Shown here piece after piece: positions 2,013-30,472 of a stretch of 38,742 nt of DNA. The position numbers and the translations under genes are program-made. The notes below the pieces were generated by a model. That model did not search any database, was not told the DNA's origin, and was given only the letters and a program-made list of their open reading frames with translations. The DNA is from Butyrivibrio sp. GTDB lineage: Bacteria > Bacillota > Clostridia > Lachnospirales > Lachnospiraceae. The stretch spans positions 1 through 38,742 of the forward strand of contig JAGAAO010000096.1 in assembly GCA_017615275.1 (NCBI GenBank). The letters run 5' to 3'. How positions within the stretch are numbered: position 1 is the first letter of the stretch; each line of letters starts with the position of its first letter.

Positions 2013-2741
2013 TTATTTTCCATTTAATATGTTCATGGCGTTGTCCACTCTTTCTTTTGAAGGTGACTTAACGCCATCCAAACGGTAAGGAATACCGAGT
2101 GTTTCAAATTTATGCTGTCCCATCGAATGATAAGGAAGGACTTCTATCTTCTTCACATTAGAAAGTTTCTCAATAAACCTCCTTGTCTGCTTAAGATACT
2201 CATCATTGTCCGTTATTCCCGGAACAAGTACATGGCGGATCCAGATTGGCTGACCTTTCTCCGAAAGATATTCCATTCCGTCAACTATGTTGTCATTCGG
2301 AAGTCCCGTGAGTTCAATATGCTCCTGCCTGTCAATGTGTTTGATATCCACAAGCATAAGATCTGTGTACTCAAGAAGCTCGTTAAACTTTGAAAAGAAG
2401 GGTTCCTCTCTTGTAAAAGGCTCAAGCGCCGTGTCGATACACGTTCCAATTCCGCGTTCTTTTGCCTTCTTAAAAAGTTCAAGCAAAAAATCTATCTGAA
2501 GAAGAGGTTCTCCACCGCTTACGGTTATTCCGCCTTCCTCTCCCCAATAACTTCTGTATCTCTCAGCAAAATCCAAAAGCTCATCTGCGGTTCTCATATC
2601 CTCTGAATTAGGGTCCCAAGTATCCGCGTTGTGACAATACTTACATCTGAGTCTGCATCCCTTTAAAAATACGATAAATCTGATTCCCGGTCCGTCTACG
2701 GATCCGAATGTCTCTATTGAATGAATTGCACCTTTTACCAT
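2013..2741 (-). CDS. pflA: Pyruvate formate-lyase activating enzyme (radical SAM)
   Basis: Radical-SAM enzyme that installs the glycyl radical on pyruvate formate-lyase, using a [4Fe-4S] cluster, S-adenosylmethionine and a reductant. With the start chosen here (242 residues) the protein begins MVKGAIHSIETFGSVDGPG, as in the family. It carries the cluster motif C-x3-C-x2-C (C29, C33, C36) and the SAM-binding GGEP motif. The ATG at 2741 has a GGAG ribosome binding site five bases upstream. An in-frame GTG at 2771 would add ten residues and overlap the regulator gene's stop, but it has no clear ribosome binding site and does not match the family. The gene follows the FNR-like regulator with a short gap, suggesting one transcript from the NUDIX gene through pflA, ended by the terminator at 1978-2005. 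Confidence 0.95.
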   Translation of the reverse strand: MVKGAIHSIETFGSVDGPGIRFIVFLKGCRLRCKYCHNADTWDPNSEDMRTADELLDFAERYRSYWGEEGGITVSGGEPLLQIDFLLELFKKAKERGIGTCIDTALEPFTREEPFFSKFNELLEYTDLMLVDIKHIDRQEHIELTGLPNDNIVDGMEYLSEKGQPIWIRHVLVPGITDNDEYLKQTRRFIEKLSNVKKIEVLPYHSMGQHKFETLGIPYRLDGVKSPSKERVDNAMNILNGK

Positions 2742-2767
2742 TACTACTCCGTTCTGAAATTCCACCG

Positions 2768-3529
2768 TCACTGGTAGATATAAATCTCTCTGAGAGCATC
2801 TCTGTCAAGAACCTTGATCCTTGCATGCCCTTTTCTCTCTATAAGTCCGCTCTTCTCAAGTTCTCTGAGCTTCCTGCTGACGGTCTCTGTCCTCAAGTTC
2901 ACACTTGCGGCGATATCGTCGAGTTTTAATACTATGTCGTCTTCCACGCTTCTGTCAACTCTGTACATCAAAAATCCCGCCAGTCTCGCCATTGGATCTT
3001 TGGTGGAAAGAAGCATATTTCTCTCATTTGCATCGTGAAGTTTTTTGCTCAAAAGGATGATGATATTCATAGCCGCTGTCGGATCGTCAACAACCTTTAT
3101 GAAATCATCTCTGTGAATCTGGCATATAGAAGCATTTGTAAGGCAAACTGCCGAATACGGATAAATACTGCCATCCAGAAACATGCCTTCCCAAATGATA
3201 TCGTGATCTGCAAGTATTGTTATAATCTGCTCTCTTCCGAGCGAATCATATCTACAGAGTTTTACCCTGCCCTTCCTGATTATACAGATTGAGTCTACCG
3301 GCTCGCCTTCTCTGAAGAGATAACTGTTTTTCTTGAGAGTCTCATGGACAGAATGCTCCATAAGGCTTACCTGCGCGTTTACGGGAAGTCCCTCAATAAT
3401 GGGAACGCTCTCCGTGCACAGACCACCGCATTCCTCACAGATATTCAGGCCTACAATTCCTCTCTTTAGTTCCTCTGCCTGACTCTGCCCCTGATATATT
3501 CCGTTTTTTATTTCTTTTTTCTCATTCAT
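2768..3529 (-). CDS. Crp/Fnr-family transcription regulator, FNR-like with cysteine cluster
   Basis: A 253-residue regulator with an N-terminal cysteine segment (C31, C34, C38), a cyclic-nucleotide-binding-like beta-barrel (about 55-150) and a C-terminal winged helix (about 178-250). C136, in the stretch SICQIH, aligns with C122 of E. coli FNR. Together these give the four cysteines expected for an oxygen-sensing [4Fe-4S] cluster, although the N-terminal spacing is C-x2-C-x3-C rather than FNR's C-x2-C-x5-C. The recognition helix ETVSRKLRELEKSG keeps E215, S218 and R219, the FNR residues that contact TTGAT. It sits 13 bases after the NUDIX gene and just before pflA, and a perfect FNR box lies in front of pflB. 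Inference: it is an anaerobic activator of pflB. An alternative is a nitrosative or redox sensor of the same fold. Confidence 0.9.
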   Translation of the reverse strand: MNEKKEIKNGIYQGQSQAEELKRGIVGLNICEECGGLCTESVPIIEGLPVNAQVSLMEHSVHETLKKNSYLFREGEPVDSICIIRKGRVKLCRYDSLGREQIITILADHDIIWEGMFLDGSIYPYSAVCLTNASICQIHRDDFIKVVDDPTAAMNIIILLSKKLHDANERNMLLSTKDPMARLAGFLMYRVDRSVEDDIVLKLDDIAASVNLRTETVSRKLRELEKSGLIERKGHARIKVLDRDALREIYIYQ

Positions 3530-3542
3530 ACATTATTGCTCT

Positions 3543-4103
3543 TTACTCTCTAGACCACAGATAACAATATGCCTGCGTTCTACCTGCAAAAGGCTGAGTT
3601 TTAAGGAGTTCTCTGACTTCTTCTTTGGTGTACCAACCGGGAACAATCTCCTCAAGTGTCGAGCTGCTCTTTGCAAATGTTCCGGTCGCTTTTCCAACAC
3701 AGCAAAGATTTTTCTCATTGGAAAAGCCCACTGCGCTGTAACTCTCACCGATCCACTCATCGATACATATTATATCAAGTCCCGTTTCTTCCTTGAGTTC
3801 TCTCCTTGCACTTTCCTCGGGCTTCTCTCCGGGATCGATAAGTCCTGCGGGAAAATTGTATACCCAAGCTCCGGGAGCAAGTCTGAACTCCCTGTTTATC
3901 AATATCTTTTCACCGGTCTCATCGTGCATAATGAGCACAACTGCATCCGCTTTACTGTTATGAATGTCATCGTATCCCTTTAGATTTGGATTTCTGCTGA
4001 TTATCTCGTATGTCTTATCCTTGTTGTCTACTGTCTTATAATGAAGGTCATAGCGAGTGATAAATTCACCCTGTTCCTTCTTCTCCAAGTATTGAAATTC
4101 CAT
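3543..4103 (-). CDS. NUDIX hydrolase, ADP-ribose pyrophosphatase-like
   Basis: A 186-residue NUDIX protein. The complete Nudix box G-x5-E-x7-R-E-L-x-E-E-x-G-L spans residues 87-109 (GLIDPGEKPEESARRELKEE, then TGL), giving the Mg-binding glutamates. The preceding stretch with a beta-strand-rich N-terminus and FRLAPGAWVYNFPAG resembles ADP-sugar pyrophosphatases, which cleave ADP-ribose to AMP and ribose 5-phosphate. Substrate specificity is inferred from this general resemblance only. The start has a TAAGG ribosome binding site. It is the first gene of the NUDIX - FNR-like - pflA run; no functional link between the hydrolase and the regulator is evident. Confidence 0.88.
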   Translation of the reverse strand: MEFQYLEKKEQGEFITRYDLHYKTVDNKDKTYEIISRNPNLKGYDDIHNSKADAVVLIMHDETGEKILINREFRLAPGAWVYNFPAGLIDPGEKPEESARRELKEETGLDIICIDEWIGESYSAVGFSNEKNLCCVGKATGTFAKSSSTLEEIVPGWYTKEEVRELLKTQPFAGRTQAYCYLWSRE

Positions 4104-7276: not shown

Positions 7277-7332
7277 AAAATGAAGTCTGTAATAAGAAGT
7301 CGCGAACGACTCTTTATTACAGACTTCATTTT
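7277..7332 (-). terminator. Long-stem terminator of the hprK-whiA-HPr operon
   Basis: A perfect 19-base-pair stem (7277-7295 with 7314-7332) continues, after two unpaired positions, into an inner five-pair stem with a CGAA tetraloop. On the minus strand it begins 15 bases after the HPr-like stop codon and is followed by A/U-rich sequence with U-runs. It is symmetrical and could also stop transcription from the other strand. Confidence 0.88.
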
Positions 7333-27444: not shown

Positions 27445-27506
27445 TATTACTTGTTTTTGTTTATTAAAATTTTTATCTCGTCAAAAAATCAGGAGGAATG
27501 TTTGAA

Positions 27507-29120
27507 ATGGCTGTAAAGTATATTTTTGTGACAGGCGGAGTTGTGTCAGGTCTAGGAAAGGGGATAACCGCTGCATCTTTGGGAAGACTTCTCAAAGCTC
27601 GCGGCTACAAGGTGACAATGCAGAAATTCGATCCCTATATCAACATCGACCCCGGTACAATGAACCCCGTTCAGCACGGTGAGGTTTTCGTTACTGAGGA
27701 CGGTACGGAGACTGACCTGGATCTTGGTCACTACGAAAGATTTATTGACGAGAATCTTGATAAAAATTCCAACGTTACAACCGGTAAGATCTACTGGTCA
27801 GTACTACAGAAAGAACGTCGCGGTGATTATGGCGGACGTACCGTACAGGTTATCCCTCATATCACAAATGAGATCAAGAGCAAGTTCTACAGGAACTTTA
27901 CCGATGACGAAACACGCATCGCTATCATAGAGGTAGGAGGAACAGTCGGAGATATCGAAAGTCAGCCTTTCCTTGAAGCAATCAGACAGTTCCAGCATGA
28001 AGTTGGTCGCGAGAATGCAATGCTTATCCTCGTATCACTCATCCCTTACCTCAGAGTTTCTCAGGAGATCAAGACAAAGCCCACACAGTCTGCCGTTAAG
28101 ACAATGCAGGGAATGGGTCTTCAGCCCGACGTTATCGTATGTCGTTCCGAGATGGAACTCGATCAGGATACAAAAGATAAGATTGCACTCTTCTGTAATG
28201 TTCCCAGCAATCACGTATTGCAGAACCTCGATCTTGAGTATCTCTACGAAGCTCCTCTTGCTATGGAAAAAGAGCACCTTGCTCACGTTGCATGCGAGTG
28301 CCTGAACCTTGAATGTCCCGAGCCCGATCTCACAGATTGGAAGGCAATGGTAGACACTCTCTACTCACTCAGTCATGAAGTTAAGATTGCTCTTGTAGGT
28401 AAGTATACACAGCTTCACGATGCATATATAAGTGTTGTTGAAGCTCTAAAGCACGGCGGTATCTCTAATCAGACCGCAGTTGATATCAAATGGGTTGACT
28501 CTGAAGAAGTTAACGAAGACAATGTTGCATCTTTCTTTAAGGATGTTGACGGAATTATCGTTCCCGGTGGTTTCGGCGATCGCGGAATCGAAGGCATGAT
28601 TCACTCTATCAAGTATGCCCGTGAGAATAATGTTCCGTTCCTCGGACTTTGCCTCGGTATGCAGCTTGCTATCATCGAGTTTGCAAGAAATGTTATCGGT
28701 TACGCCGATGCACATTCTATCGAGTTTGATCCAAACACACTTCATCCTATGATCGCGCTTCTTCCTGACCAGAACGGTGTAGAGGACATCGGCGGAACAC
28801 TTCGTCTCGGTTCATATCCTTGCGTACTTGATAAGGATTCCAAGGCATTTGAACTTTTCGGTTCAGAAAATATTACAGAGCGTCACCGTCACAGATATGA
28901 AGTAAACAATGATTACAGAAACGTACTTGTAAGCAACGGAATGAAACTTTGCGGAATGTCCCCTGACGGACGTATTGTTGAGATGATTGAGCTTCCTTCA
29001 AACGACTTCCACATTGCAACACAGGCTCATCCGGAACTTAAGTCACGCCCCAACAGGCCTCATCCCCTTTTCTCAGGCTTCATTAAGGCGTCTCTCGATC
29101 ATGAAAAGAAAAACAAATAA
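27507..29120 (+). CDS. pyrG: CTP synthase (glutamine-hydrolysing)
   Basis: Makes CTP from UTP, ATP and glutamine; last step of pyrimidine nucleotide synthesis. The 537 residues start [19 protein letters not shown], the family's amidoligase P-loop, with [13 protein letters not shown] and the conserved GGTVGDIES. The C-terminal class I glutamine amidotransferase domain (about 290-535) has the oxyanion loop PGGFGDRG, the nucleophile motif FLGLCLGMQ and the His-Glu pair in [10 protein letters not shown]. An ATG at 27498, one base after AGGAGG, is too close to the ribosome binding site, so the ATG at 27507 is preferred. It is a single-gene transcript ended by the perfect hairpin that starts in its stop codon. 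Confidence 0.98.
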
Positions 29121-29163
29121 TAACTATAAAATGCCTCCGGTTGGAGGCATTTTATAGTTATTA
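29118..29163 (+). terminator. pyrG terminator, 21-bp perfect stem including the stop codon
   Basis: Bases 29118-29138 pair perfectly with 29143-29163 around the loop GGTT. The stem contains the pyrG TAA stop codon at its foot. There is no long U-run after it on the plus strand, but the lower stem is A/U-rich, and the hairpin is symmetrical, so it could also act on the minus strand. Confidence 0.85.
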
Positions 29164-29220
29164 ACGTTTCTTTCATGTCAAACATTTATATACCAAAAAT
29201 AATTCTACTCAGAAAAGAAG

Positions 29221-29609
29221 GTGTGAATTTTTGTCTGTGAAAAAGCTTGTAGATTCATGAGACACCAAAATCTGCCATTTAATTCTTCTCGCAGCTCATT
29301 TGTTTGACATCCCAATATACTAAGGGCTATGGCTTTGGGCTTTGTTTTTTGAGTCATTAGCAACAAATCCACATTTTCAAATGTTCCATCGACCGTTTTC
29401 CACGCGCATACGAAGACGTTTGTAGTCGTAGTATGCGCATTAAAGGAAAACGGTCGGAACATATAGAAAATGTGAGATTTGTTGATCGCGATAAAAACAA
29501 AGCCCAAAGCCATAGCCCTTAGTATATTGAGATGGAGTTTATGAGCTGCAGAATTAAATGACAGATTTTGATGTCCATGAATCCAAGCTAAAAAGCGACA
29601 AAAATTCAG
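29221..29609. repeat. Giant imperfect palindrome (~390 bp) between convergent transcripts
   Basis: The left arm (about 29221-29411), read on the minus strand, matches the right arm (about 29431-29609) read on the plus strand along almost its whole length, at roughly three quarters identity with small gaps. The longest exact match is 37 bases (29313-29349 with 29493-29529). The centre is near 29421, between GCGCATAC (29404) and GTATGCGC (29431). The right arm ends exactly at the permease stop codon. Transcribed, it would fold into a ~185-pair bulged hairpin. It fills the pyrG to permease gap (29164-29605), which otherwise holds no gene. A small ORF inside it is not convincing. It may be a MITE-like or duplicated dispersed repeat, or a structured RNA. 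Confidence 0.85.
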
Positions 29610-30472
29610 CCCTTTACCGATCCTGTTGTAATTCCAGCCACGAAGTATTTCTGAAGGGAAAGGAAAACCACAAATACAGGGATGAGCGACAGCACAGAGG
29701 CTGCCATTATGAGTCCATACTCTGCAGAATATTGTGAGATGAACATTTTTAAACCTATCTGCAGAGTCTTTTTGGACTCTGTTGTAAGATAGATGAGGGG
29801 GCCAAGAAAGTCATTCCATGTATTTACAAACGTAAAAATTATAAGTGTAGATAATGCCGGCTTGGAAAGCGGAAGCATTATAGTTGAATAAATCTTGTAC
29901 TCGCTCATTCCGTCGATACGAGCCGCTTCGCATAGAGAATCGGGTATTCCCTCATAGAACTGTCTCATAAGGAAAACTCCGAATGCCGAAAACGCCTGCA
30001 ATATTATGATCGCAAGATGAGTATCCGCAAGTCCGAGTTTTCTCATAAACATGAACTGAGGAACCATATATACCTGCCACGGAACAGCTATTGTCGAAAC
30101 GTACGCAAGAAAGAGGACATTTTTCCCCTTGAACTGCAGCTTTGCAAAGGCATATGCCGCAAAGCTCGATGTAAGGAGCTGAAGCCCTGTCACTATAAGC
30201 GTTAATTTGACCGTATTTAACGTAAATTTTGCCAGCGGTATCTTTGTCCATATGTCGATGTAATTCTTCCATCTGGGCTCTTTGGATATCCATTCGAAAG
30301 GAATTACAAATACATCCTTATTGAACTTAAGAGAAGCCGATATCATCCACGCGAAAGGCACCAGCATCATAAGCGCCAGAAATATGAGAATTATATATAC
30401 GATCACGCTTCCGATCACTTTGTTGTTCTTTTTACTTCTCACTCTTTTGCCCTCCCGATCAGTCATTAGCAT
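29606..30472 (-). CDS. Carbohydrate ABC transporter permease, MalG-like (CUT1 family)
   Basis: A 288-residue membrane protein with six predicted helices, the first at about 21-43. The EAA loop that docks the ATPase is EAARIDGMSEYKIYSTIMLP, near residues 190-210, and the C-terminus FVAGITTGSVKG is typical of MalG-type permeases. With the upstream permease it would form the channel of a sugar importer. It overlaps the upstream gene by 14 bases; two in-frame ATGs (30472 and 30466) are possible and the first is used because GAGAAG lies closer to it. No terminator other than the giant palindrome follows it. Confidence 0.93.
   Translation of the reverse strand: MLMTDREGKRVRSKKNNKVIGSVIVYIILIFLALMMLVPFAWMISASLKFNKDVFVIPFEWISKEPRWKNYIDIWTKIPLAKFTLNTVKLTLIVTGLQLLTSSFAAYAFAKLQFKGKNVLFLAYVSTIAVPWQVYMVPQFMFMRKLGLADTHLAIIILQAFSAFGVFLMRQFYEGIPDSLCEAARIDGMSEYKIYSTIMLPLSKPALSTLIIFTFVNTWNDFLGPLIYLTTESKKTLQIGLKMFISQYSAEYGLIMAASVLSLIPVFVVFLSLQKYFVAGITTGSVKG

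Follow-up and report, generated by a model that had tools for sequence, protein, structure and literature searches.

A giant imperfect palindrome behind pyrG of a Butyrivibrio is probably a decayed copy of a mobile hairpin family

The stretch of DNA analyzed here, termed the window, comprises 38,742 nucleotides of a Butyrivibrio contig and carries an imperfect palindrome of 397 bp between pyrG and a sugar-transporter permease gene. We consider it probable that this palindrome is one copy, likely decayed, of a mobile repeat family whose members are giant palindromes. These giant hairpins, up to 850 bp long, are scattered in intergenic DNA and lack any recognized gene, and the family seems akin to REPINs and MITEs in kind and behavior while matching the full definition of neither.

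An earlier note on this DNA had described a giant imperfect palindrome centered near 29421, with inverted arms about three quarters identical and an exact match of 37 bases. This description was borne out: the BLAST self-match covers 29218-29614 at 75.9% identity over 419 columns (251 bits), the longest exact match between the arms is 37 bases (left copy at 29313-29349), and a 7-base apical loop lies at 29418-29424. The right arm was also said to end exactly at the permease stop codon (29606-29608), but it continues slightly beyond, to 29614, overlapping the final codons. The features of the locus are as follows.

27498..29120, + strand: pyrG, flanking gene (ORF; name from the first reading of the sequence)
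29118..29163, no strand assigned: bidirectional terminator-like hairpin behind pyrG, a neighbor outside the element (inverted repeats and terminator scan; both strands score)
29218..29614, no strand assigned: whole giant imperfect palindrome, the window's family copy (self-match, fold z on both strands, related copies)
29218..29414, + strand: left arm (four inverted repeats found in the window)
29313..29349, + strand: exact run of 37 bases, identical to the opposite arm (29493-29529) read as its reverse complement
29415..29427, - strand: apical hairpin, 7-base loop closed by GAC/GTC (comparison of copies)
29428..29614, + strand: right arm, overlapping the last permease codons (inverted repeats and ORF)
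29606..30472, - strand: sugar-transporter permease, with its stop codon inside the right arm (ORF; name from the first reading of the sequence)

The + strand of the palindrome folds to -219.6 kcal/mol (z of -24.9 versus shuffles) and the - strand to -225.8 kcal/mol (z of -24.3). Across ten sequences simulated at the length of the window with a first-order Markov model, the top mirrored palindrome reached 38.3 bits, compared with 251 bits for the real one. Among 19 mirrored hairpins from the same genome (264,148 bases, the starts of 20 contigs), one reached 60 bp and none reached 100 bp, indicating that the window palindrome does not belong to the tail of ordinary hairpins. A second mirrored hairpin in the window (7277-7332; 56 bp, 86% identity) has the size of an ordinary terminator.

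The region had been taken to be free of genes, and this agrees with our searches: no protein family passed the cut-off, no tRNA was found in the window, and no Rfam model matched the window at or above its gathering score. A permissive Rfam search of 29050-29700 returned just 19 sub-threshold hairpin look-alikes, the best being MIR2630 (78.8 bits on the + strand and 73 on the - strand; cut-off 144), a score that any long hairpin may give. Translated ORFs from element loci, six plus five of them, likewise gave no family over the cut-off; three weak sub-threshold matches in such translations (DUF3755, ResT-TelK_cat, and PRK01903.1-4) were set aside.

When the assembly that contains the window was searched by DNA similarity, 20 matches at 11 places were retrieved, one of these places being the window copy; this count is a lower bound, given that the assembly (G000) is 84.79% complete and lies in 99 contigs. 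Five long palindromes were recovered, namely the window copy (397 bp) and those on contigs C90 (577 bp), C26 (572 bp), C6 (511 bp), and C36 (573 bp), together with two shorter ones on C26 (231 bp) and C49 (149 bp), the remaining matches being one-arm or cut pieces. Most of the compared copies are collinear over their full length with distinguishable arms (C26a and C6 are 85% identical in one orientation and 68% in the other), showing that the repeating unit is the whole palindrome. This refines the earlier idea of an inverted pair of a dispersed repeat, which is largely right in its MITE-like reading: the repeat is dispersed, but it does not consist of two smaller copies placed back to back. 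Compared with C26a, the window copy is 84% identical over its inner 200 bp in one orientation and 74% identical over its full length in the opposite one, a pattern that looks as if the center of the window copy had been flipped. On C26 (L021), an inner-only copy of 231 bp (3356-3586) lies ~330 bases from the full copy (2453-3024); it is 97% identical to the inner part of the latter and would stem from a recent event nearby, in which the inner hairpin was either copied or converted.

Combining DNA-similarity searches with several members, we found the family in 15 of 79 genomes of the genus, including that of the window; single queries matched 6 of the 79 in two of the searches, and diverged family members will have been overlooked by DNA comparison. 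For 11 of the 15 carriers, self-comparison of their loci confirmed palindromes, whereas G063, G064, G068, and G079 are counted on similarity alone. A pattern of conserved core letters, scanned against named genomes (5 matches), identified Butyrivibrio sp. M55 and Butyrivibrio hungatei NK4A153 and XBD2006 as carriers; a pattern match in a Rikenella MAG has no palindrome and was taken as chance. In a search of 299 genomes across the bacterial family, the own genome matched again, as did one (G346) of 297 genomes from other genera, and none of 24 other-genus genomes matched at the level of the order. The G346 loci (L217 and L219) hold one-arm pieces near a small three-hairpin motif, with nearby hairpins of only 56 bp.

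The genome G014 is rich in copies. Queried with the initial 111 bases of the unit, it shows matches at ten places (87-100%); seven are near-complete units (89-100%), one matches at 86% over 567 of 590 bases, and two are shorter palindromes of 562 and 297 bp. The convergent ORFs around one of the G014 copies are 715 bp apart, whereas the same pair lacks the giant palindrome in four relatives: the ORFs abut in G068 and G099, are ~36 bp apart in G095, and are ~62 bp apart in G080, with an ordinary terminator-like hairpin in between. Because these four relatives keep the gene pair without the palindrome, the G014 copy is clearly an insertion, even though the empty-site relatives show only 74-78% DNA identity on the left side and are not sister strains. 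Nor was a giant palindrome found behind five similar permease genes in relatives (75-78% DNA identity). The suggestion of a dispersed, MITE-like repeat is thus supported by the copies in the genome and its relatives and by presence or absence at one site. In G063 (L236, 470-1540), the same junction is filled by ~1 kb of different DNA, which on visual inspection resembles coding sequence.

Inspection by eye of nine loci (eight from G014 and one from G023) revealed that eight units sit in a further outer stem of ~16-24 bp that varies in sequence from copy to copy; the ninth unit is cut at its right end. Some of the outer stems share a weak common consensus, so they are not wholly unrelated. In 8 of the 9 loci the flanks run on into the copy-specific stems with no clean boundary, and no target-site duplication was seen at the nine loci, where the stems blur the boundaries. 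At one empty site, the relatives do not have the same outer stems. The stems may derive from resident hairpins or may arise on insertion; movement of a fixed unit leaves them unexplained. A search of G014 and G023 with the end sequences returned copies and pieces of the element.

Copies also differ at their apex. Minimum-energy folds possess three loops in 14 of 28 elements, one loop in 12, and two and six loops in the remaining two, and in the printed folds three hairpins at the apex form a T-like end. Two further three-loop cases come from G080 and G077; the one-loop forms include the window copy, its relatives in the same genome, XBD2006, and two further G014 copies. Palindromes usually decay by losing their center, and the one-loop forms of the window, its relatives in the same genome, and XBD2006 are accordingly more likely centre-deleted, although the three-hairpin apex may have been gained in long copies. 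On first reading, the three-hairpin apex of M55 was considered a later insertion; the frequency of three loops makes loss the more likely course. One orthologous site lies behind a response-regulator-like ORF: here the palindrome measures 471 bp in XBD2006 and 671 bp in M55, where the apex contains additional sequence, while in NK4A153 a leftover hairpin of ~100 bp probably reflects palindrome loss. The apical loop reads TACAAAC on the - strand of the window copy and TATAAAC or TATAGAC in six other copies, and is closed by GAC/GTC in the window copy, GGC/GCC in XBD2006, and GAC/GTT in C36.

The two arms change together. Over 12 comparisons we counted 218 paired double changes versus ~22 expected under independent sides, along with 223 single-side changes and 32 non-pairing double changes; these sums are descriptive, as the comparisons reuse sequences and the members were chosen as palindromes, which favors paired changes. 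Single changes dominate the cores of recent G014 copies, and double changes those of the more diverged pairs. Mismatches comprise 175 G.T versus 171 A.C in 23 elements, the strand of several of which was assigned by eye, and single changes led to G.T in 65 cases and to A.C in 60 (12 comparisons); single elements are off balance in both directions (14 G.T and 5 A.C in NK6, 7 and 13 in G014g).

Orthologous sites provide further evidence. M55 and NK4A153 carry a copy at a second shared site, between convergent ORFs, where the element (M55b/NK6) is 89% identical in inverted orientation while the collinear alignment with the flanks extends over 1,514 columns at 83%. At a third site, shared by G014 and G023, the element is 93% identical when inverted, inside a collinear alignment of 3,066 columns at 89.8%. 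Taken together, the flips, the paired changes, and the lack of a wobble preference fit a process in which DNA synthesis uses one arm as the template for its partner. Template switching that homogenizes the arms of inverted repeats and inverts their spacer is described in the consulted part of PMC8604942.

These data bear on the possibility, raised in the earlier note, of a long structured RNA, considered here as a giant non-coding RNA, or an RNA hairpin at a 3' end, whose pairing is maintained by selection. It would explain the very stable fold of both strands, the many paired double changes, the conservation of inner mismatches and the apical loop among copies, and the position of 12 of 24 elements, each with an end no more than 25 nt from where a neighboring ORF stops (orthologous copies counted apart). 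However, a selected RNA should keep G.U and lose A.C on its strand; arms that co-change without favoring G.T over A.C point to homogenization at the DNA level rather than to an RNA fold. The flips at two orthologous sites, the placement of C90, C26a, and C6 between divergent ORFs (the left one at C6 being just 74 aa), and the lack of an Rfam match at threshold also argue against an RNA, which we regard as unlikely despite the compensatory changes. Selection on DNA pairing is possible, given the conserved inner mismatches and apical loop. It is similarly doubtful that the palindrome is a two-way transcription terminator or 3' mRNA stabilizer, grown large and serving the adjoining genes. The window palindrome does start at the permease stop, in several cases a copy takes up the space that separates two convergent ORFs, and one convergent site is retained in two species, but pyrG already has its own bidirectional hairpin, one convergent pair is kept without the giant palindrome in four relatives, and some copies lie away from 3' ends. 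A terminator scan of 29000-29750, which sees only short stems with loops of 3-8, scored the hairpin at 29118-29163 and nothing inside the palindrome. Any role of the palindrome at the window locus is probably incidental; two-way termination is conceivable as a side effect, and under our preferred reading of a mobile family, any effects of its copies on adjoining genes are likely to be of that kind. As for a chance palindrome or a local inverted duplication that has no relatives elsewhere, readings that the earlier note had placed opposite its own proposals, the imperfection of the arms is the sole point in their favor, and the copies refute them: the arms recur at 11 places in the genome, in other species, and at orthologous sites, and compensatory changes are present, leaving these explanations with practically no probability.

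Two further explanations concern the way in which copies move, and no enzyme has been tied to the family. The palindromes could be giant REPINs, mobilized by a RAYT (REP-associated Y1 transposase) and bearing an inverted REP pair as outer stem. One genome, G006, offers indications for this: the outermost stem of its 850-bp palindrome consists of inverted repeats that match, at 87-94%, those found around a Y1_Tnp gene.

G006, L044 1769-2618: 850-bp palindrome; Y1 locus L138 (shared repeat match)

A 211-base stretch with these Y1-linked repeats matches G006 in 115 pieces, which include single places counted on both strands. The giant palindrome of this genome sits inside a REPIN-like repeat pair, part of a RAYT/REP-like system in Butyrivibrio. 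A 30-base piece also occurs at a Y1 locus of G034 (L139). Compensatory changes, moreover, are described for REPIN spacers in the portion of PMC3116915 consulted. Nevertheless, Y1_Tnp (PF01797) is present in 6 of 9 genomes searched and gave no match in G032 (a draft estimated to be 100% complete), G087, and G000, all of which carry copies, and when 24 elements were compared with 12 Y1 loci (E of 0.001), the G006 element matched and the other 23 did not. Y1/RAYT is therefore not supported as a general mover, and we consider giant REPINs a rather unlikely account of the family as a whole. Parvoviruses have T-shaped terminal hairpins, and by analogy in outline one can imagine a new class of bacterial hairpin transposons in which the T-shaped giant hairpin, with its long bulged stem and three apical hairpins, would be a mobile single-stranded DNA form moved by a nuclease; insertion into the loop of an existing hairpin, or inverted copying of the flank, would then wrap each copy in a new outer stem, with layered growth as a result. 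This, too, we give a small chance.

In the reading that we prefer, a mobile-repeat family, the copies would spread non-autonomously, moved in trans by an enzyme that recognizes the folded single strand, as proposed for RAYTs and REPINs, or alternatively by one that recognizes the element ends, as with MITEs. Arm pairing would be kept mainly by template switching in DNA synthesis, or by recombination conversion, between the arms; either process could rewrite one arm from the other and flip the middle, and loss of the center would produce shorter forms such as the window copy.

MITEs are short, dispersed, gene-free elements with inverted ends that are present or absent at a given site. The Butyrivibrio family shares the dispersal, the inverted ends, the freedom from genes, and the presence or absence at one site, but its arms occupy nearly the whole element, its outer stem varies by copy, and neither a target-site duplication (nine loci) nor an autonomous partner (end-sequence search of G014 and G023) was found. 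ERIC, YPAL, and bcr1 are intergenic imperfect palindromes of ~100-170 bp that occur in several copies; those of Butyrivibrio are likewise intergenic and multicopy, yet several times longer and layered. With the REPIN/RAYT system, as presented in part of PMC3116915, the family has in common populations of extragenic hairpin repeats and compensatory changes on both hairpin sides, and one giant palindrome (that of G006) is bounded by inverted Y1-linked repeats. It differs in the length of its long forms (~400-850 bp, where that part of PMC3116915 gives 71 and 110 bp as common distances between REPs), in its few copies, in the carriers without a Y1_Tnp match, and in the lack of Y1-linked end repeats in the other elements compared. 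REP dimers inserted within longer palindromes are reported, in the part of PMC3733652 consulted, for short REPs of other bacteria; a palindrome within a palindrome is a shared trait, but the inner one in Butyrivibrio is hundreds of bases long. Similarly, the template-switch homogenization covered in the consulted part of PMC8604942 shares the alike arms and the spacer flip, but involves short inverted repeats in the Saccharomyces lineage, whereas in Butyrivibrio it would act on long bacterial palindromes.

The size of these elements, the paired evolution of their arms, their flips, and their layered outer stems should surprise a specialist. In bacteria, a palindrome several hundred bases long is not expected to last, as SbcCD and slippage should cut or delete it. 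This family nonetheless persists between species at the same sites, both in a genome with SbcD (G014) and in one with a weak partial match (G016). SbcD was over the cut-off in G014, with its ~ten copies, a finding that led us to reject lack of SbcD as the reason for survival; G016 and G000 gave weak partial matches only. As orthologous pairs exist, arm homogenization, flipping, and center deletion of long palindromes can be measured in nature, and if a mover is found, it may represent a new way of spreading hairpin DNA.

The literature that we searched, which was covered in part, contained no description of a giant palindrome family in Butyrivibrio. According to the consulted part of PMC10434271, Butyrivibrio hungatei was reported to have the lowest total number of inverted repeats; PMC13155455 deals with perfect repeats with short spacers, and the parts of it that were consulted do not mention Butyrivibrio. 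Such elements may also break assemblies, the C79 copy running off its contig end. In the alignment of L042 and L091, the sequence TTAGCACTC-N9-GAGTGCTAA, which we take to be a CIRCE-like operator, lies between the element and the next ORF.
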